Shown: positions 29,188 through 41,813 of the stretch, piece by piece
Position numbering within the stretch: the stretch's first letter is position 1
Layout of the letters: each line of letters opens with the position of its first letter
Made by a program: the position numbers and the translations under genes
Notes under the pieces: generated by a model
The model's input: only the letters and a program-made list of their open reading frames with translations
Databases searched by the model: none
Told to the model about the DNA's origin: nothing
Origin: Candidatus Methanoperedens sp.
GTDB lineage: Archaea; Halobacteriota; Methanosarcinia; Methanosarcinales; Methanoperedenaceae
DNA: 64,000 bases
Assembly (NCBI GenBank): GCA_023249105.1
Contig: JAHFDG010000011.1
Coordinates: 62,001-126,000 of the forward strand
Reading direction: 5' to 3'

Positions 29188-29820
29188 ATGAATCTACCAA
29201 TACTAAGAAAAGAATATTCAACAATTAATAGCTTTATAGATTCATGGAAAAAATATTATGAGTCAGATGAAAATCAAGATAAGATTTATTTTGACAACCT
29301 AAAACCAATAAATGAATTAAATGCAGAAAATATACAGAATTTATTTCAATGGAAAAATGAGACAAAAAATATTTGGAAATATAAACAGAATTCCATAGAT
29401 AAAATTATAAAAGATTTAGCAAATATCAAAATTAAGTTTGAACATATTGGAAATTCAGATCAAGACCTTAGAAATATCTACAACTATAGTTGTGATAATT
29501 TTTTTACCAGCGGGTATATATGGAATCTATTCTTTCTTCATATATTGAAATATGAAAGTTGCCCAATTGCAGATAGGTATGCTTATACGGCATTTAAATT
29601 TATTCGTTATGGAGAGTATGTAAAATTGTCTGGGGATAAATGGAAGACTTGGGATTTTTATATAGATTATAGAAACTTTTTTAATAACATCGCAACAGAA
29701 ACCAATCGAATTAAAAAAGAGGAAAAGAAAGAAATCGACGAAGCTCTTTGGGGATTTGGTAAATTCTTAGAGAGATATCCAAAAATTATAATGGAAGATC
29801 AGATAAAATCATGCACTTAA
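29188..29820 (+). CDS. Hypothetical AT-rich protein between gyrB and gyrA
   Basis: A 210-residue protein with many Asn, Lys, Ile and Tyr residues, no membrane span and no family that I recognise. The reading frame is much more AT-rich than gyrB or gyrA, which suggests recent acquisition. ATG 29188 is chosen; the frame also extends back into gyrB, but that part is shadow coding. GAGGG at 29179-29183 is close to the start. It overlaps the following MNT gene by 10 nt, so it may be a third component of that module. Confidence 0.65.
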   Translation: MNLPILRKEYSTINSFIDSWKKYYESDENQDKIYFDNLKPINELNAENIQNLFQWKNETKNIWKYKQNSIDKIIKDLANIKIKFEHIGNSDQDLRNIYNYSCDNFFTSGYIWNLFFLHILKYESCPIADRYAYTAFKFIRYGEYVKLSGDKWKTWDFYIDYRNFFNNIATETNRIKKEEKKEIDEALWGFGKFLERYPKIIMEDQIKSCT

Positions 29821-30173
29821 ACATCGCACAAATCTCTAAAGACAAGAAAATTCAGGATGCATTCACCGATATCATCCAGAGCATAATCAGCAACTATGCT
29901 CCCCAGAAAATTGTGCTTTTTGGTTCTTATGCAAGAGGAGAAGCGCATGAAGGCAGCGATATAGACCTCATGCTGATAAAAGAAACATCTAAAAGGTTCA
30001 TAGATAGAATAGCGGATGTAATAAAGCTGAATAATACTCTCCTTTCGCTTGAACCTCTGGTATATTCACCTTTAGAGCTTGAAACTATGAAAAAAGAAAA
30101 AAGGGATTTCATATTGACTATTGAAGAAGAAGGAATTGAAATTTATGATGCGAGAAGCAGAAAGATGGCTTAA
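29811..30173 (+). CDS. MNT-type nucleotidyltransferase, antitoxin of HEPN/MNT module 1
   Basis: A 120-residue minimal nucleotidyltransferase with a perfect G-S-x10-D-x-D (G38-S39 to D50-I-D52). In characterised MntA-HepT systems the MNT protein AMPylates the HEPN RNase to neutralise it. The gene overlaps the HEPN gene by 29 nt, as is usual for these pairs. It sits between gyrB and gyrA. Confidence 0.9.
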   Translation: MHLNIAQISKDKKIQDAFTDIIQSIISNYAPQKIVLFGSYARGEAHEGSDIDLMLIKETSKRFIDRIADVIKLNNTLLSLEPLVYSPLELETMKKEKRDFILTIEEEGIEIYDARSRKMA

Positions 30174-30540
30174 TCAGGCAAAAAATGACCTTGAAGCAGC
30201 GAAATGGAATTCAGAAGGGAAATTTTATGCTCATGCATGTTTTCTCTCCCAGCAGGCTGCCGAAAAAGCGCTGAAAGCTTATCTTTATTCGATTGGAAAA
30301 AGAAAGATAATTACACATTCCACATATACCCTCGCCAAAGAATGTGCTCAAGAGAATAATGTGTTTAATTCAATATTGTCTATTTGTGCGGAACTCGATA
30401 AAAACTACATACCATCCCGTTATCCCAATGGATTACCAGATAGTATCCCATCAGAAGTTTATCTCAAACAGGATGCGCAGGTTAGCATTAATCATAGTGA
30501 AAAAGTTTTAGATATTGTTTCGAAATTAGTAAAAATTTAA
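30145..30540 (+). CDS. HEPN domain protein, toxin of module 1
   Basis: A 131-residue helical HEPN protein. The MMREAERWLNQAKNDLEAAK start, SQQAAEKALKAYL core and R53-x4-H58 (RKIITH) followed by Y61 correspond to the RNase motif and the modified-Tyr region of HepT-like toxins. Start at ATG 30145 (or 30148); the frame extends upstream to TTG 30121. It lies 22 nt upstream of gyrA. Confidence 0.88.
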   Translation: MMREAERWLNQAKNDLEAAKWNSEGKFYAHACFLSQQAAEKALKAYLYSIGKRKIITHSTYTLAKECAQENNVFNSILSICAELDKNYIPSRYPNGLPDSIPSEVYLKQDAQVSINHSEKVLDIVSKLVKI

Positions 30541-30562: not shown

Positions 30563-33088
30563 ATGACCGACCCAGAACCCAAAGAACCACAGCAGAAACT
30601 TGTAATTGAAAAAATCACACCCGTCAACATCGAGGATGAAATGAAGCGCTCGTATATCGATTATGCCATGAGCGTCATCGTGGGGCGCGCTCTCCCTGAT
30701 GTCAGGGACGGCCTGAAGCCGGTACACCGCCGCATTCTCTATGCGATGAACGAGCAGGGGATGACACACGACAAGCCATACAAGAAATCAGCAAGGATAG
30801 TGGGAGACGTTCTTGGTAAGTACCACCCGCATGGTGATATCGCTGTTTACGATTCTCTCGTAAGGATGGTACAGGAGTTCTCTCTTCGCTATCCGCTGAT
30901 AGACGGGCAGGGAAATTTCGGCTCAATAGACGGCGATAGCGCTGCAGCGATGCGATACACTGAAGTCCGTCTTGGAAAAATAGCAGATGAGATTCTCGGA
31001 GACATCGATAAAGAGACAGTAGATTTCGTACCCAACTACGATGATTCATTAAAAGAGCCCTCAGTCCTTCCATGCAAGCTCCCCAACCTTCTTATCAATG
31101 GCTCTACAGGAATTGCAGTAGGCATGGCGACCAATATGCCGCCACACAATCTTGGCGAAGTGATAGACGGCATAAACATGGTCATCGACAAACCAGATGT
31201 TGAGGCAAGAGAGCTTAACAGCATAATCAAAGGTCCTGATTTCCCTACTGCTGGCTTTATCTATGGACGTCAGGGGATAATAGATGCATACACTACAGGC
31301 CGCGGCTCGATAAAGATGCGCGCCCGGGCAATAATCGAAGAAGTGAAGAACAAGGAACAGATAATCGTTAACGAGTTACCCTATCAGGTGAATAAGGCAA
31401 AATTGATCGAAGATATTGCAGGTCTTGTAAGGGATAAGAAAATCGCAGGGATAACCGACCTTCGCGATGAATCGGATAAAGACGGCATCCGCATCGTCAT
31501 TGAGATATCAAGACAGGCTCAGGCCAACATCATTTTGAACCAGCTTTATTCGCACACCCAGCTTGAGACCACTTTTGGCGTTATCAACTTGGCTCTTGTG
31601 GATGGGCGCCCGATGGTTCTACCATTAAAAGAAATAATCGTCCAGTATATTTCCCACAGGAAGCAGGTCATTATACGAAGGAGCCAGTTCGAGCTTAAGA
31701 AAGCACAGGCGCGTGCCCATATACTCGAAGGTTTGATAATCGCACTTGACCGTATTGATGAAGTCATAAAGTTGATAAAAGCCTCAAAAACACCGGATGA
31801 AGCGCGTGACGGTCTTATGGCAAAGTTCAGCCTGAGCATTGAGCAGGCAAAGGCTATCCTTGATATGAGGCTTCAGAGGCTCACGGGTCTTGAGCGCGAG
31901 AAGATAGATGCTGAATACGGGGAGCTCCAAAAGACAATTGCATGGCTCAAGGAACTCCTTGCAAGTGAAATAAAAATACTTGCGCTTATAAAAGAAGAAC
32001 TTGCAGACATTAAAGCCCGCTTTGCTGATAAGAGGCGGACAGAAATCATTGAAAGCACCGGTGACCTTGTGACCGAGGACTTAATCCCGAAAGAAGATGA
32101 TGTCATTACGATAACAAACAGCGGTTATATCAAACGCATCGCTGTGGATGCATATAAACAGCAGCGCCGCGGCGGGAAGGGTGTCATGGGTATGGAGACC
32201 AAGGAGGAGGATTTCGTAAGCGACCTCTTTATCGGGAATACTCACGATTATCTCCTTTTCTTCACCGATAAAGGCAAAGTGTACTGGCTCAAGGTATATG
32301 GGATACCCGAAGCGGGGAGGCAGGCGCGCGGCACAGCTATCGTAAATCTCTTGCAGCTTGAGCAGGGTGAAAAGATAAACGCCTACATACCTATCAGCAA
32401 ATTTGATGAGAAGCACTATCTTTTGATGGTCACAAAGAAGGGCACAGCCAAGAAGACGGAGCTTACCGATTTCGCAAATCCCAGGAAAACGGGGATAATT
32501 GCTATCTCTCTTGATGAAGGGGATAAACTGGTATCCGTAAAGCTCACGGATGGGACAAAGGAAATGGTGATCGGAACAAAACATGGGAAGGCCATTCGGT
32601 TCAACGAGAATGACGTAAGGGATATGGGACGAAGCGCTTACGGCGTGAGAGGCATAAGGCTTGTAGGCGAAGATGAAGTTGTCAGCATGGCAGTCGTGGA
32701 GGAAGGCGCAACTCTTCTCACCGTTACTGAAAATGGTTTCGGGAAGCGCACCGTATTTGATGAATACAGAACAAGCAACCGCGGCGGACAGGGCGTTATT
32801 ACCATCGATGTCAATATCAGGAATGGCAACGTCGTTGATATCAGAACCGTCCGCGAGGATGAAGAGATCATGGTCACGACTTCAAATGGCATCATCATCC
32901 GCGTGCCTGTGAGCGGGATTCGCGTGCAGGGCAGGAACACGCAGGGAGTGACGATAATGGATGTTAAGGAGAAGGACAGGGTGGTTGGGGTGGCTACGCT
33001 GGCGAAGGAGGAGGAGAGTGGGGAGGAGAAGGCGGTGCAGGTGAAGCTAGAAGGGGCAGGAACTTTTTCTGAGGAGAAGAAATCTTGA
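30563..33088 (+). CDS. gyrA: DNA gyrase subunit A
   Basis: The DNA-cleaving subunit. The 841 residues contain [20 protein letters not shown], the catalytic tyrosine Y132 in [10 protein letters not shown], and the C-terminal beta-pinwheel with the GyrA-box variant QQRRGGKG near residue 533. The GyrA box implies true negative-supercoiling activity. The end is Lys/Glu rich. The 3' part shows very G-rich codons (GAGGAGGAG runs near 33009-33030). A TTG start of the next gene overlaps its stop. Confidence 0.97.
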
Positions 33089-34242
33089 GATTCGAAGGTC
33101 AAACTAAATTATTTGGCAGAATAAGGACACGTATAAGTGGCCTAATAAAAGGAATATTTTATATTTTATTAGGATTACTAATTATATGGCTTATTGGAAA
33201 CATAATACAATATATTCAAGGAAGTTTAAGTGAAAATAACCTGCAAAGTGTGTTCTTATTAAAAGATAAACCGGAATTGTCTATTATTTTATTGTTGGTG
33301 GTGATAGCATTATTCTGGATTTCGAGGAACCAGCATTGGAACAAATTACTTAATTTGTTGACCGGATTCAAGCTACTCAATCGCATAACACAAGCAACCA
33401 TCTTATTGTCAGCTATATTTTATGTCACTTTATTCATCGCTACACGATTTGCCAGTACTGTTTTCAAAAACGATTGGACGTTGCTGATAGTTGCAAGTAT
33501 ACCGATTTTAGTGCTCATAGTATTGGTTCTCCTTGAGAGAGCCAAGTCGGTTGAGTTTGCAGGTATAAAAATTGAATTACAGCGAACTACACTGGATATT
33601 ACTAAAGCCCTAATTCCAGAAAAAAGTCTTGTAGAAAAAGATTTAACTTCTGAATTGTCCCGTATAGTTGAAGAGGCTAAAAGAGAAGAGTCTCGCATTC
33701 TACTAGTTCGGCTTGGAGGCGAAATGCATGTAGAGTTCCCTGCATTACGCAATTATGTTTATGAATTGAGCAAAGTTGCACCTATCGAGTATATTGTCTT
33801 TATTGACGAGGATGAACGGTATCTTGGCTTCTGCGCTGTGGAAAAGTTTAAAGCAAAATATCCAAAGTTCGGAATTGAAATGTTACTCGATGACATTGAA
33901 CACGATGAGCACGTCTTTAATCTACTGAAGGATTACATACACTTTACTGTATCTGATATCCCTCTAAAAATACAATCAAAATATTTGCGTGATAAATTCG
34001 TGTTATCCTTATGGGATCCAAATCTAAACCAACCAGAGATAACCAAACATGATCTGAATAGATTAGGAGCAATGCGACTGTTTCTTCTTCAAAAATCAAC
34101 GGTCTCTGAAGCTTATGATCAAATGGCGAAAAACAGCGTTTCTGGTATTCCAGTTATTGATGAAAAGTGGAGATTCATAGGAATGGTGAATAAAGATAAA
34201 GTATTACAAGAAGTGATTACTCAGCTTGTAAAAAATGCGTAG
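33085..34242 (+). CDS. Membrane protein with C-terminal CBS-like domain, function unknown
   Basis: A 385-residue protein with four hydrophobic spans in the first 155 residues (about 20-45, 65-85, 105-125, 132-152). A soluble region follows that ends in a CBS-type motif ([23 protein letters not shown], then [12 protein letters not shown]; written here in parts). The middle region about 200-300 resembles no domain I know. It starts with TTG overlapping the gyrA stop and is more AT-rich than gyrA, which suggests an added gene rather than an old gyrase partner. Confidence 0.7.
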
Positions 34243-34305
34243 TAGACCTTCTATTTACTTTTGAAGGAATCCATAGAAACCCCACCACTCGTGCCGCATA
34301 CCCAT

Positions 34306-34344
34306 CGCGCCCCCTCCGGCTCAATGACAGGGCGGCGCCGCTGT
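34306..34344. repeat. GC-rich dispersed repeat, copy 1
   Basis: This copy contains CCCCTCCGGCTCAATGACAG followed by GGCGGCGCCGCTGT. The core GCGGCGCCGC is a perfect palindrome and CCCT/AGGG can form an outer stem. It lies 111 nt upstream of the MNT gene of module 2. Two further copies are at 35174 and 36411. Confidence 0.85.
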
Positions 34345-34364
34345 TGAAAAAACCGCAGATGAAT

Positions 34365-34392
34365 TTAAGTTCGTACAAGTTCGCTGCTAATA
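34365..34392. repeat. Partial copy of the TACGAACT-type repeat
   Basis: TTAAGTTCGTACAAGTTCGC followed by TGCTAATA matches, on the opposite strand, the region around 25632-25660 (TTAACAGCGAAC...TACGAAC). It sits right after GC-rich repeat copy 1. The similarity was found by eye. Confidence 0.55.
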
Positions 34393-34455
34393 ACCGTAAT
34401 CCTGGCTCAGAAAGAATTTATAATTGTATAGAACAGATATACATCAAATTCATTT

Positions 34456-34788
34456 ATGATCACAAAAGAAACAATCACAAACATTGCAAGTAAAATAGCC
34501 GAATGTTTCAATCCAGAGAAAATAATCCTTTTCGGCTCTTACGCATGGGGGAAACCCGACAGGGATAGCGACCTTGACCTTTTTGTGATAATGGAATCCA
34601 AAGAAAGACCGATAAAGCGCGCCGCATCCCTCAGGCGCGTATTAAAAGACCGCTATGTTCCCATGGATATACTCGTTCGCACACCTGAAGAACTCAAACA
34701 CAGGCTGAAAATCGGAGACCCTTTTATCAGGAAAATATTAAGGGACGGGCAGGTGATATATGCGCGAGATAGTGCGAGAGTGGGTTAA
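34456..34788 (+). CDS. MNT-type nucleotidyltransferase, antitoxin of HEPN/MNT module 2
   Basis: A 110-residue protein with G27-S28-x10-D39-L-D41 (GSYAWGKPDRDSDLD) and the PIDILVRTPEEL-like C-terminal half (here PMDILVRTPEEL). It overlaps the downstream HEPN gene by 29 nt, the same overlap as in module 1, although the two proteins differ in sequence. Confidence 0.9.
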   Translation: MITKETITNIASKIAECFNPEKIILFGSYAWGKPDRDSDLDLFVIMESKERPIKRAASLRRVLKDRYVPMDILVRTPEELKHRLKIGDPFIRKILRDGQVIYARDSARVG

Positions 34789-35131
34789 AAAAGGCGACAG
34801 CGATTTTATTGCAGCAAAGACACTTGCGCCGCAAAAAGGAGTTGAAAACCAGACCGGGTTCCACTGTCAGCAGGCAATTGAGAAATGGCTGAAAGCATAC
34901 CTTGTCAAGCAGGGCGAAGAGTTGCGAAAAATCCACGATTTGACTGCTCTTGTCATTGACTGTGAAAAATATAACCCCGCATTTCAAGAACTTGAGCCTC
35001 TTGTGGAAGGGCTCACCGATTTTGCAGTGGAGTTCCGTTATCCGGGCGAAAATGCAACTCGGGAAGATGTTCAGGATGCTCTCGATAAAACTGTCAAAAT
35101 CAGAAAATTCCTGATGCCTAAAATTGAATAG
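34760..35131 (+). CDS. HEPN domain protein, toxin of module 2
   Basis: A 123-residue HEPN protein: REWVKKGDSDFIAAKTL, then FHCQQAIEKWLKAYLV, ELRKIHDLTALV and a conserved FRYPGE. The histidine of the H-D-L segment is present, but the spacing from the preceding arginine (R-K-I-H) is not the classic R-x4-6-H, so RNase activity is less certain than in module 1. Confidence 0.88.
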   Translation: MREIVREWVKKGDSDFIAAKTLAPQKGVENQTGFHCQQAIEKWLKAYLVKQGEELRKIHDLTALVIDCEKYNPAFQELEPLVEGLTDFAVEFRYPGENATREDVQDALDKTVKIRKFLMPKIE

Positions 35132-35173
35132 GCAAGATTTCAAACAAAACCAAAAACACTTCTCTCTCATCAG

Positions 35174-35213
35174 GCGCGCCCCTCCGATTCGATGACAGGG
35201 CGGCGCCGCTGTA
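35174..35213. repeat. GC-rich dispersed repeat, copy 2
   Basis: Same core as copies 1 and 3 (CGATGACAGGGCGGCGCCGC) with CTCCGATTC in place of CTCCGGCTC on the left. It lies 62 nt upstream of the UPF0175 gene of module 3. A purine-rich GAAGGAAAAG follows, as behind copy 3. Confidence 0.85.
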
Positions 35214-35275
35214 GACGAAGGAAAAGATATTATTATAGTACGTTATAACCATATTATATCACGAGGTACAATAAA

Positions 35276-35581
35276 ATGGAAACTCTGTCTGCCGACCTTG
35301 AGAGAAAAGTGAAAGCATTAGTGAGCGGCGGCTATTATTCAAGCAAAATCGAAGTAATAAAAGATGCTGTAAAAAGCTTATTTAGAGAGAATGCCGAGTT
35401 GAATATTAATGCAGCGATAGAACTCTACAGGAAAGGGGATGTATCCTTAGGCAAGGCAGCCGAAATCGCCGGGGTTACAACCATCGAATTTAAAGAGATT
35501 TTATCCAAAAGAGGATTTACAAGAGAGATAGAAGCAAGACCAGCGGCAGAAATGGATAAAAAGCTCAAAAAATACCTGTAA
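35276..35581 (+). CDS. UPF0175 family protein, antitoxin of the PIN module
   Basis: A 101-residue protein. Its N-terminal part resembles a ribbon-helix-helix/CopG-like region (SKIEVIKDAVKSLFREN). The UPF0175 helix-turn-helix core follows (AIELYRKGDVSLGKAAEIAG, then FKEILSKRG). UPF0175 genes commonly precede PIN-domain toxins, as here (1 nt gap). GAGGT at 35262-35266 is a suitable ribosome site. Confidence 0.88.
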   Translation: METLSADLERKVKALVSGGYYSSKIEVIKDAVKSLFRENAELNINAAIELYRKGDVSLGKAAEIAGVTTIEFKEILSKRGFTREIEARPAAEMDKKLKKYL

Positions 35582-35582
35582 T

Positions 35583-36071
35583 ATGATATTCGATACCGAT
35601 ATATTGAGCATGCTGGTCAAAACAGGCAAAGTTGATTTACTGAAGAAATTATTTCCAGAATCGAGCCTCATAATCACCTTTGAGGTATATAACGAGCTTT
35701 TAAGGGCAAAAGAAGCAGGATACGATTTTGTTGATGACATTTTAAAGCAGGAATTCAAAGTTATTCATTTAGACCCTGATTTGATCAAAGAATACGAACA
35801 GAAGAAAGAAGGTTTAAAAAATCTCCATGCAGGCGAACTGACATCTATTCTATTGTGTAAAAGAGAGGGTATGGATTTTGCGACCAATGATAACAAAGCG
35901 AAGAGATTTTGCCTGGAGATTGGGGTTCAGTGGTTGGACATTGTGGATATACTCAGGTTATGCTACTTGAAGCGTGTGCTTGATAAGAGAGAAATCGAGA
36001 AGATGCTAAGGGATATTGAAGAAACAGATAGGACAAGAATAACGAGAAAAGAAAGAATTTTTGCTGATTAA
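35583..36071 (+). CDS. PIN-like domain protein (DUF3368 type), toxin of the PIN module
   Basis: A 162-residue PIN-fold protein: D4 and D6 in MIFDTDIL, the acidic E in LHAGELTSI, and ATNDNKAKRF form the expected set of acidic metal ligands of a ribonuclease. The C-terminal tail is charged. It directly follows its UPF0175 partner. Confidence 0.85.
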   Translation: MIFDTDILSMLVKTGKVDLLKKLFPESSLIITFEVYNELLRAKEAGYDFVDDILKQEFKVIHLDPDLIKEYEQKKEGLKNLHAGELTSILLCKREGMDFATNDNKAKRFCLEIGVQWLDIVDILRLCYLKRVLDKREIEKMLRDIEETDRTRITRKERIFAD

Positions 36072-36102
36072 CGCAAAGCGAGTCGAAGCTGCAGGAAGAA
36101 AT

Positions 36103-36366
36103 ATGAGCAAAAATAAAAGTTCCATATCAAAAGCACAGAGCTACAAAGAAATTGGTGAATATTGGGATAAGCATGACATTGCCGAGAACTGGGAAGAAAC
36201 AAAACCAGCCGAATTTGAAGTTGATATTAAATCCGAAGTTACTTACTATGCTGTTGACAATAAATTATCGGCAAAGGTTCAGGAATTTGCTAGACGGCAT
36301 GGTGTATCACCGGACACTCTTTTAAATTTGTGGCTGCAAGAGAAATTACAAGAGCAAAATACCTGA
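36103..36366 (+). CDS. CopG-type antitoxin without a visible toxin
   Basis: An 87-residue protein with the CopG_antitoxin layout: YKEIGEYWDKHDIAENWEE, then the FEVDIKSEVTYYAVD strand, and a C-terminal helix with VSPDTLLNLWLQEKL. Such genes usually follow or precede a BrnT- or RelE-like toxin. None is found here; it instead follows the PIN toxin by 31 nt. Start at ATG 36103, though the frame reaches back to 36061. Confidence 0.75.
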   Translation: MSKNKSSISKAQSYKEIGEYWDKHDIAENWEETKPAEFEVDIKSEVTYYAVDNKLSAKVQEFARRHGVSPDTLLNLWLQEKLQEQNT

Positions 36367-36410
36367 AAGGAAATAGGGGAGGAAAATACTCTTTTTTTTC
36401 TCATGATTGT

Positions 36411-36447
36411 GCGCCCTCCGGCTCGATGACAGGGCGGCGCCGCTGTA
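36411..36447. repeat. GC-rich dispersed repeat, copy 3
   Basis: GCGCCCTCCGGCTCGATGAC followed by AGGGCGGCGCCGCTGTA. GCCCT and AGGGC pair around a 13-base loop, next to the palindrome GCGGCGCCGC. It lies 59 nt upstream of module 4 and is followed by GATGGAAAAG. Confidence 0.85.
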
Positions 36448-36488
36448 TGCGATGGAAAAGACCCTAACACAATGCTTATTAACTATCT

Positions 36489-36522
36489 GATACAACTGTA
36501 TATTATATGATACAATTGTATC
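36489..36522 (+). promoter_or_regulatory. Two operator-like palindromes over the start of module 4
   Basis: GATACAATTGTATC (36509-36522) is a perfect 14-bp palindrome that begins at the last base of the ATG of the wHTH-MNT gene. An imperfect copy GATACAACTGTATA lies at 36489-36502, exactly 20 bp upstream, so the sites face the same side of the helix. The winged-helix domain of the encoded protein is the obvious candidate to bind here and repress its own gene. Confidence 0.7.
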
Positions 36523-37064
36523 AAAAAATTATACAACTCAATATTCTTGAGCTTTTCATAAAAAACCCTTATGAACGGTATTATCTCAGGGAAGCGTCGA
36601 GAATGCTTGAGATTAGCCCGATGACTGTAAAACGCACACTCGACATACTCGTACAGGAAAGGCTGCTAGTCAGGGAAAAATTCAAGAACCAGATACTTTA
36701 CAAAGCCAATATGGATAGCGTCGCTTTCAAACACTTAAAGGCAGCCTATAACCTCGCGTGGCTTGAGGAAAAGAACCTTGTAGAATTCCTGAAAGAAAAA
36801 CTCACCGGATTGAGTTCCCTTGTTCTTTACGGCAGTTTTGCAAAAGGGGAGAACGATGAGAAAAGTGATATAGACCTTCTTGCAATCTCGCCAACTTTGA
36901 AAAAAAGCGGCTTACGATTACCGGCACTTTTGGGAAAAGAAACCTCTTTGATCATATTTACTCCTTCGCAGTGGAAAGAACAGAGCAAAAATAACAGGGC
37001 TTTTTACCTTGAGGTTATTACTGGGGGAATTGTTCTATTCGGGACAAGACCGGTGGTGGAATGA
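36507..37064 (+). CDS. Winged-helix/MNT fusion protein, antitoxin-regulator of HEPN module 4
   Basis: A 185-residue fusion. An N-terminal winged helix covers about 1-70 (YYLREASRMLEISPMTVKRT is the recognition region). A nucleotidyltransferase domain follows with G109-S110-x10-D121-I-D123. Such proteins combine promoter control with neutralisation of the HEPN toxin. The start codon is embedded in the operator-like palindromes. It overlaps the HEPN gene by 4 nt. Confidence 0.88.
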   Translation: MIQLYQKIIQLNILELFIKNPYERYYLREASRMLEISPMTVKRTLDILVQERLLVREKFKNQILYKANMDSVAFKHLKAAYNLAWLEEKNLVEFLKEKLTGLSSLVLYGSFAKGENDEKSDIDLLAISPTLKKSGLRLPALLGKETSLIIFTPSQWKEQSKNNRAFYLEVITGGIVLFGTRPVVE

Positions 37065-37492
37065 ATTTAGAAGAATGTTTTGAAAAAAGGTTATTAAGAA
37101 ATGCGCGCCCGGACAGGTTAAAGAGCGAAAAGGCGCTGGAAATGGCAGCCCAGGCGATAGCTGTGGCTGAAAAGCTTTTTGAGCATGGATTTTATGAGCA
37201 GGTCATACTTTATTCATACACAGCCATGTTTCAAGGGGCAAGGGCACTGCTTTTCAAGGATGGTATTTTTGAGAAAAGCCATTATTGTGTGGTCGAATAT
37301 CTGAAGCATAATTATTTGAAGAGCTGCAAGCTTGACCAGAGCCACATTTACTGGCTTGACACGTATCGAATCGAGCGCCATGAAACCCTATACGGATTAG
37401 AAAAAATAGACATCAAAGAAAATGACGCAAGGGATGCAATAAAAACAGCGAGAGACTTTTTGGAAGTTATAAAGAGACTAGCAAACGAATAG
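37061..37492 (+). CDS. HEPN domain protein, toxin of module 4
   Basis: A 143-residue helical protein of the HEPN group paired with HTH-MNT proteins: ALEMAAQAIAVAEKLFEHGF, LYSYTAMFQGARALLFKDGI, and DTYRIERHETLYG with Arg and His near the usual active-site position. Coupled by a 4-nt overlap to the fusion gene. The last gene of the accessory stretch; the UbiB gene beyond lies on the other strand. Confidence 0.85.
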   Translation: MNLEECFEKRLLRNARPDRLKSEKALEMAAQAIAVAEKLFEHGFYEQVILYSYTAMFQGARALLFKDGIFEKSHYCVVEYLKHNYLKSCKLDQSHIYWLDTYRIERHETLYGLEKIDIKENDARDAIKTARDFLEVIKRLANE

Positions 37493-37601: not shown

Positions 37602-39287
37602 TTACCATCTGCCTGAACGGATAATCGAAACAAGCAGCCCGATCCCTAAAAAACCTGCAATAAGAAATCCGAAAATCCCGAGAAATGGCACACCAAAAAG
37701 GCTTGGCTGCATTCTTGTCTGGATAATGAGAGAAGAACCCACAATCAGCGAAGCAATTATCATGCTAAAAGACAGCCTGTTGCTCAGTATATCCATTTCC
37801 TCAACAAGGGTTTCAAGCTCCAGGTGTTCCAGTTCAAGCTTCAGTGTTCCTTTTTCTGCCTTTGCAAGGATATGATTGACCCTTCTTGGTAAGGTCTTGA
37901 CAAGGCGAATATAATCCAACACCGTTTTTTCAGCCTCTTTAATTAAATGAGACGCTTTTGTACGCTCCTCAAGCATCTTATCAACATAAGGTTTGGTCAA
38001 TTCCCCAAAATTATGTTCAGGATCGAGTTTACGGCTGATTTCATCCCTTATAACAAGCGTTTTTGACAGGAGCATTATATTTGTCGGGATTTTTCCCCTG
38101 GTTTTAGCAAAAATATTGATAATATCATGTAAAAACAATGTGGGGTCTATGAATTTACTGGATAGATTGTAATATTTGCTCAAAAATTCTTCAAGTTTAA
38201 TCCGAAGTTGCGGACTCTCACTTCCAGCGTCGCTAATCAACCCTATTTCTGCGAGAGCTTCTATAAGAATATCTATATCATTCAATTGTATCGCTATTAT
38301 GAGATGGGCAAGGTTTTCGTGAAGTATGGGGTCTATGTGCCCCGCCATTCCAAAATCAAGAAAAATGATACTGCCCTCATGGGAAACAAGGATATTCCCG
38401 GGATGCGGGTCGGCATGATAAAAACCGTCCTCAAAAATCATTTTCAGATATGCATTCGCAAGATCGAATGAAATTTTTTTCTTGTCAAGACCCATTGATT
38501 CAATCCGTTCGATTTCCGTTATTTTGATGCCCTCTGAAAATTCCTGGGTCAATACATGTTTTGTAGTGTATTCCCAGTACATTTTTGGTATCCTGACCGT
38601 AGCGCTCCCCTTGAAATTTGAGTAAAACCTGTCAGCATTCTGGGCTTCATTAACATAATCAATTTCCTGCCTCATGATCCTGGAAAACTCATCAACGAAA
38701 CCCACAGGATTAAAAAATTTGCTTTCTTTTATATGCTTATCGGCAAATCTTGCAATACTCATTAAGATTGCAAGGTCTGTTTCAATGATGTCCTCAACGC
38801 CTGGCCGCATCACTTTGACCGCTACTTCCTCGCCTCCCGACAAGGTTGCGCGATAGACCTGTCCTATCGAAGCTGATGCAATTTGTTCAGGATTGAAGGA
38901 TTGGAATATCTCATCAAGTTTCCTCCCGAATTCCTTTTCGATTACTTTTTTTGCCTCTGAAAATTCAAAAGGCGGAGCACTGTCCTGAAGCCTGGAAAGT
39001 TCCCGTATGTACTCTTCCGGGATAAGGTCATACCTTGTGCTTAAGATTTGCCCGAATTTAATAAACGTGGGCCCGAGTTCTTCTAAAGCAAGGCGCAGTC
39101 TTTGCGCTTCCGAGAGCCGCAGCATTTGTTCCTTGAGAGGTCTGGGCCCGAACAATTTCTCACGCAAAGACCGAAAAGGGCGAAGCCCAAACCTGTCAAC
39201 AAGGTAACCGAATCCGTGCTTTATCATCACGTCAACGATTTGCCTGTATCGTTTGACGTAAGCAATCCCTTTATCAAGCAGACGCAC
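37602..39287 (-). CDS. UbiB/ABC1 family protein kinase-like protein
   Basis: A 561-residue ADCK/UbiB protein. It has the N-terminal QILSTRYDLIPEEYIRELSR segment (KxGQ-type region, here KFGQ), ASASIGQVYRA as the Ala-rich loop, VAVKVMRPG with the ATP lysine, FHADPHPGNILV and FLDFGMAG. Two C-terminal membrane helices follow. The family supports quinone or isoprenoid lipid metabolism by an unclear mechanism; whether this organism makes menaquinone is not shown here. It lies 20 nt downstream of a phasin-like gene on the same strand. Confidence 0.92.
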   Translation of the reverse strand: MRLLDKGIAYVKRYRQIVDVMIKHGFGYLVDRFGLRPFRSLREKLFGPRPLKEQMLRLSEAQRLRLALEELGPTFIKFGQILSTRYDLIPEEYIRELSRLQDSAPPFEFSEAKKVIEKEFGRKLDEIFQSFNPEQIASASIGQVYRATLSGGEEVAVKVMRPGVEDIIETDLAILMSIARFADKHIKESKFFNPVGFVDEFSRIMRQEIDYVNEAQNADRFYSNFKGSATVRIPKMYWEYTTKHVLTQEFSEGIKITEIERIESMGLDKKKISFDLANAYLKMIFEDGFYHADPHPGNILVSHEGSIIFLDFGMAGHIDPILHENLAHLIIAIQLNDIDILIEALAEIGLISDAGSESPQLRIKLEEFLSKYYNLSSKFIDPTLFLHDIINIFAKTRGKIPTNIMLLSKTLVIRDEISRKLDPEHNFGELTKPYVDKMLEERTKASHLIKEAEKTVLDYIRLVKTLPRRVNHILAKAEKGTLKLELEHLELETLVEEMDILSNRLSFSMIIASLIVGSSLIIQTRMQPSLFGVPFLGIFGFLIAGFLGIGLLVSIIRSGRW

Positions 39288-41632: not shown

Positions 41633-41813
41633 AAAACTTTAAGAAAGTTTTATCAAAAGAAGGGGTATGCTGCGCATACCCCAACACGCCCTCCCGAAAA
41701 CCTTTGGGAAAGCTTTACCAAACGAGGGGTATGCTGCGCATACCCCAACACTGCGTAAACCGAAGTTTCGGTTTAGGCGTGACTCGGGACCGCATAAAGC
41801 GAGGTGTCGCTTT
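41633..41813. repeat. Tandem hairpin array between EamA gene and map
   Basis: A 57-bp unit occurs twice with 64-bp spacing: about 41631-41687 and 41695-41751. Its right half (AGGGGTATGCTGCGCATACC onward, through CCAACAC) is identical in both copies and forms a perfect 9-pair stem GGGGTATGC/GCATACCCC with loop TGC (arms 41662-41670/41674-41682 and 41726-41734/41738-41746). The left half of copy 1 forms AAAACTTT-AAG-AAAGTTTT (41633-41651). A further hairpin is AAACCGA/TCGGTTT (41757-41763/41768-41774). Reading frames that cross it look accidental. Confidence 0.85.

Follow-up and report, generated by a model that had tools for sequence, protein, structure and literature searches.

Cassette platforms allow microbes to exchange genes in ready-made form. 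To our knowledge, few of them are known outside integrons and Xer modules, and those we are aware of in Archaea are integrons, inferred mostly from metagenomes. Archaeal integrons are the subject of Ghaly et al. 2022 (PMC9668308), whose main text makes no mention of Methanoperedens. The dif/pdif (Xer) modules of Acinetobacter are small units, some with toxin-antitoxin (TA) pairs, that are bordered by 28-bp sites and reside on plasmids or in a chromosomal module island; the recombinase involved is the host's own and is encoded elsewhere (PMC6449649, PMC12907356). In each 28-bp dif site, a 6-bp centre is flanked by 11-bp arms that are inverted relative to each other (PMC12907356). Here we analyze a stretch of 64,000 nt from Candidatus Methanoperedens sp. 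(assembly GCA_023249105.1, contig JAHFDG010000011.1, positions 62,001-126,000; genome size 3.28 Mb), referred to as the window, in which small predicted TA units follow gyrA (DNA gyrase A) and are separated by copies of a GC-rich repeat, R. We consider it probable that the 3' side of gyrA holds a cassette array with R as its exchange junction, and we favor site-specific recombination in trans as the process behind it.

R is composed of a 27-bp core, TCCGGCTCGATGACAGGGCGGCGCCGC, and approximately 20-40 C-rich bases to its left; one of its ends is GGCGCCGC. The core has a GC content of 74%, compared to 43% for the window. The original prediction, made from the window sequence, had pointed to three repeats of about 40 bp with a nearly invariant core, each followed by a TA-type module. 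These repeats were recovered at 34304-34344, 35172-35212 and 36406-36446, and the 20-mer GATGACAGGGCGGCGCCGCT has 1, 0 and 0 mismatches in copies 1 to 3, with 0.00 matches expected from dinucleotide shuffles. No fourth copy was found in the 3.28-Mb genome at up to 3 mismatches. An nhmmer search of gyrA 3' regions identified 24 copies in 15 of the 34 family genomes, and a sequence profile gave about 22 strong copies, likewise 3' of gyrA, which itself is a single strong copy in most of these genomes. Twenty-two of the 24 copies lie on the gyrA contig, within 3.4 kb of the stop codon on its 3' side; the other two lie on contigs that are linked to it by an exact 127-nt overlap (in the genome numbered G029) or by synteny with G018 (in G019). 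All 24 share the strand of gyrA and hence a single orientation. A short-pattern search had matched 11 of the 34 genomes, and three of its matches (L007, L008 and L019) were discarded as chance hits inside coding genes. At the order level (186 genomes), R matches at E <= 1e-4 occur in one genus of 27 and in none of the 26 others, and all named exact-pattern matches in GTDB belong to Candidatus Methanoperedens. On the gyrA tree one clade accounts for most occurrences of R (12 of 17 genomes), the others being G025, G011 and G002, which implies several losses or gains. R is an old resident of one chromosomal place. Between species its core is 83% identical, the same value as for gyrA coding DNA (83%), while the next 40 nt are at 30%, with no similarity left, and R itself is therefore probably under constraint. 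A weak R-like match (E=0.003) was seen at L063:939-965 in G020, on a contig that carries no gyrA, upstream of a DNA polymerase gene resembling one near gyrA in G023; it is possibly a decayed 25th copy.

The array shares several traits with known platforms. Like integrons and clusters of attC sites lacking integron-integrases (CALINs), it contains small accessory units that are gained and lost as units and short, possibly hairpin-prone repeats of fixed orientation, and without a linked integrase it resembles a CALIN in particular. However, the R-boxes of integron attC sites are missing (between -60 and +67 nt relative to the core start, GTTRRRY occurs in 0 of 23 copies and RYYYAAC in 1 of 23), so that attC identity was rejected; moreover, the window genome has no IntI above cut-off, and R is restricted to a single chromosomal slot in a single genus. 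The dif/pdif modules are comparable in being small, in carrying TA pairs in some cases and in lying at short sites. In contrast to these, R has a 27-bp core of high GC content without Xer arms, as judged by inspection of core sequences and per-position counts, its copies all point one way whereas the Acinetobacter sites occur in C/D and D/C forms, and it resides on an archaeal chromosome. Defense islands and hot spots likewise pair a conserved gene with a hypervariable neighboring slot filled with defense-type genes such as FRG, TIR, HEPN and DUF429, but the gyrA array has a specific repeat between its units, and homology switches there. The R array is best viewed as a cassette array with a new site: integrons and Xer dif modules work alike, but defining features of each are absent here. 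Literature searches for a gyrA hot spot or for Methanoperedens cassettes returned nothing relevant and no paper on this locus.

Support for exchange at R comes from comparisons of the arrays, all of which are between species. Pairwise alignments yielded 79 unique internal homology endpoints, 27 of which fall within 15 bp of R, compared to 3.9 expected when R positions are shifted; none of 20,000 shifts reached 27. Two arrays are mosaics. In G022, gyrA, the HEPN-like gene in the first slot and the left part of R follow G029, and the sequence beginning at the right edge of R follows G025; in G024, the left side is shared with G004 and the right side with G006. G016 and G021 have a common inverted VapB/PIN unit from R onward, whereas the genes before R differ. 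Sequence printouts place the switch inside the 27-bp core: left of TCC the sequence follows the upstream gene, and after GCGCCGC it follows the downstream gene. Each copy carries too many private changes for the crossover to be placed to within a few bases.

In the window, the locus is organized as follows.

30563..33088, + strand: gyrA (DNA gyrase A), open reading frame of 841 aa, left border of the array
33085..34242, + strand: first-slot gene, 385 aa, CBS domain (PF00571, E=7e-7)
34279..34344, + strand: repeat R1 including the C-rich left part, 27-bp core at 34315-34341
34456..34788, + strand: MNT nucleotidyltransferase of antitoxin type, cassette A (PF18765/PF01909; MntA_antitoxin NF047752 below cut-off)
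34760..35131, + strand: HEPN toxin-type protein, cassette A (PF05168, E=1e-22)
35160..35212, + strand: repeat R2, core at 35183-35209
35276..35581, + strand: UPF0175 antitoxin-type protein, cassette B (PF03683, E=1e-13)
35583..36071, + strand: PIN-like putative toxin, cassette B (no Pfam match for the window copy at 1e-3)
36103..36366, + strand: CopG-type antitoxin, cassette B (PF12441, E=5e-5, just below cut-off)
36394..36446, + strand: repeat R3, core at 36417-36443
36507..37064, + strand: MNT nucleotidyltransferase with an N-terminal winged-helix-like region, last module (PF01909, E=3e-9; winged-helix part read by eye)
37061..37492, + strand: HEPN toxin-type protein, last module (PF05168, E=8e-14)
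37602..39287, - strand: ABC1/UbiB-type kinase, right flank, convergent with the array (open reading frame, named by eye from sequence)

The genes of cassette A, cassette B and the last module are predicted to be of TA type: in the MNT/HEPN and UPF0175/PIN-like modules, members of antitoxin and toxin families adjoin and are co-directed, as read from Pfam matches and gene order, with the PIN assignment being a weak one that relies on a below cut-off PIN match (E=0.007) of the orthologue L056:8687-9211. The gene types named at the outset (MNT/HEPN, then UPF0175, PIN-like and CopG, then winged-helix MNT/HEPN) were borne out, as were the distances of about 111, 62 and 59 nt from each repeat to the next gene. 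The proposed layout of repeat plus module also held, with two corrections: a CBS gene separates gyrA from the first copy, and no copy of R stands behind the last module. Upstream of gyrA, a second MNT/HEPN pair lies at 29811-30540 without a repeat, and the immediate neighbor of gyrA in G021 and G029 is a gyrB-like gene, so that the upstream gap is variable too. In L057, L082, L083 and L084 (G004, G005, G024 and G013, respectively), a long in-frame insert, probably an intein, splits GyrA after about residue 118-130 and gives open frames of 1012-1387 aa. Further downstream in the window, at 41633-41751, a 55-nt direct repeat (78% identity, 64-nt spacing) lies close to where a methionine aminopeptidase-like gene begins.

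Gain and loss of cassettes between repeats was seen in the same comparisons. G029 has cassette A, a single R, 62 bp left over from the beginning of the last module and then the right flank of the window (91% identity), but not cassette B, the window's middle cassette; cassette B is therefore the unit by which G029 and the window differ. The UbiB-type kinase of this flank also follows the arrays of G018, G019 and G029, at 91-92% identity. Several cassettes show higher between-species identity than gyrA from the same species (CopG, 93.8% versus 81.7%; UPF0175/PIN, 82.1% versus 77.5%), which suggests transfer of cassettes between species. Relatives thus largely bear out the earlier idea that modules are added or exchanged through the repeat, with breakpoints at R; its emphasis on TA modules did not hold to the same degree, as described below. 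Separately, in 12 of 32 cases a contig was found to stop within 2.8 kb on the 3' side of gyrA, versus 4 within that distance on its 5' side (Fisher p = 0.04, hand counts), an excess that may reflect cassette variation within populations.

All nine R-to-R intervals (two each in G000 and G021, one each in G016, G018, G019, G025 and G029) carry TA-type genes. The slot also takes other genes, including CBS, FRG, TIR, DUF4365 and DUF429 proteins and, in G018/G019, a methyltransferase. Between gyrA and the first R, most species have a different gene, often of defense type: CBS in the window, FRG in G016, a TIR protein with a zinc-binding DnaJ-like part in G021, weakly HEPN-like genes in G017, G022 and G029, DUF4365 in G006, DUF429 in G004 and G024, DUF6864 in G018, and genes of no assigned family in G011, G019 and G025. 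PADLOC has related candidate defense models for the FRG, DUF429 and TIR proteins. Accessory TA- or defense-type genes occupied the slot in 14 of 15 R-bearing genomes versus 3 of 13 that lack R (Fisher p = 0.0003; genomes with a contig reaching far enough, content scored by eye, kinship ignored). Since the resident genes look like TA and defense genes, the array is probably a stock of addiction or anti-virus modules that can be exchanged. A general tie of R to TA genes was rejected: the window genome has 19 HEPN and 11 UPF0175 matches and three copies of R, all 3' of gyrA. For this reason R marks the gyrA 3' slot and not TA genes in general.

We propose that the 3' side of gyrA is an insertion slot with the layout of a short cassette array, with R as the junction at which small TA units join, are lost and are swapped between species. 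The orientation of R is fixed relative to gyrA, and the genes within a cassette point either way. A recombinase acting in trans could recognize R, perhaps as a bulged hairpin, and might excise and insert cassettes as circles. Hairpin formation by R is possible. The palindrome noted in the original prediction is present (GCGGCGCCGC), but the hairpin potential common to the copies takes only part of it, with GGCGC.GCCCT pairing with AGGGC-G-GCGCC around one bulged G. This bulged hairpin could form in most copies, although single sites fold no better than shuffles; the left and right arms are more complementary than shuffled arms (-10.9 versus -8.8 +/- 0.4 kcal/mol), and RNAalifold gave a weak, uninformative 6-pair structure on a gap-free alignment. 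Tyrosine recombinases are the foremost candidates for acting on R, if it is a recombination site. The window genome encodes four, one of which is of a ~280-aa type found in nearly all family genomes with or without R. As a tentative and possible elaboration, Methanoperedens might have a cassette-exchange system of its own, unrelated to integrons and Xer, in which R is the recombination site of a recombinase, dedicated or co-opted, that brings in and exchanges addiction and anti-virus modules where gyrA ends.

Several observations weigh against site-specific exchange at R. About two thirds of the homology endpoints lie away from R. The CopG gene, 93-94% identical to its counterparts in G016 and G018, is present from start to stop in two other arrays and partly in a third, in each case without R on its left. 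In G018/G019 the methyltransferase starts at a gene edge without an R border; the MNT gene of G017 likewise begins at its gene edge, and where G029 has an R and a leader between two genes, G017 has the two genes but neither of these elements. The change from one first-slot gene to another falls at the gyrA stop codon, and nothing resembling R was found there (between-species homology stops approximately 26-62 nt ahead of this codon in most pairs). G031, from another genus, has an MNT/HEPN pair directly behind gyrA and no R. Pairwise compensation between the arms of R was in no case significant, and own pairs were not better than swapped ones (3,680 of 20,000 shuffles were as good). Finally, no recombinase was seen in the array, no search having been aimed at serine recombinases or HUH transposases; the four tyrosine recombinases are all encoded on contigs other than that of the window (C39, C88, C90 and C125); and the best match to the IntI model TIGR02249 in the window genome scores 103 bits versus a cut-off of 265. 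Only G020 and G025 pass this cut-off, on contigs other than that of the array. These matches (L086 = G020:C157 and L087 = G025:C5) are either real archaeal integrases or contamination. Right flanks vary between species as well, and the site is therefore a general breakpoint region. Other processes also act on the 3' side of gyrA, and some genes moved without R at their border.

The main rival to site-specific exchange in trans is recombination between short repeats. R would then be mere shared homology, kept for another reason or by chance, and modules would be deleted and swapped, without a dedicated recombinase, as direct copies in the chromosome or in incoming DNA undergo general recombination or end-joining. 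Direct repeats of 27-45 bp would yield the same R-to-R deletions, and both the exchanges that lack R at a border and the absence of a linked recombinase or an IntI over cut-off are in line with it. Yet the core has kept pace with gyrA while the adjoining 40 nt diverged, as expected of a constrained sequence, and in 15 genomes R forms the common border of cassettes that are unrelated, with its orientation constant. We regard this explanation as rather unlikely. More doubtful still is a regulatory or RNA element, for instance an insulator, a terminator or a processing hairpin, that recurs since each unit needs it, with the modules being exchanged by other means. The position of R in gaps between genes, its potential to form a bulged GC hairpin and the complementarity of its arms would suit such an element. 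However, the VapB/PIN units of G016 and G021, which start at R, are inverted relative to gyrA and R, and in G030 an R is retained directly behind gyrA, although no TA cassette was found to follow it; because of these units and this lone R, a purely regulatory role is disfavored, and the shared regulatory hairpin offered earlier as an alternative to cassettes is weakened. In addition, the many HEPN and UPF0175 genes elsewhere in the genome do without R, neither an Rfam match nor a U-run behind R was found, and homology switches inside R. Other identities were rejected outright: a known RNA family (no match in Rfam), a coding sequence (true copies sit between genes and differ by indels), a dispersed repeat of the repetitive extragenic palindrome or miniature inverted-repeat transposable element kind (only three copies in 3.28 Mb, all within one array) and a virus-borne site (no exact R pattern match in IMG/VR).

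Taken as a cassette array, the gyrA locus provides an uncultured, climate-relevant methane oxidizer with a chromosomal platform that has a defined 27-bp site, a fixed address at gyrA and a cargo of predicted TA and defense genes. It gives a handle on how archaeal defense genes move, and R is a site with which the enzyme might be found.

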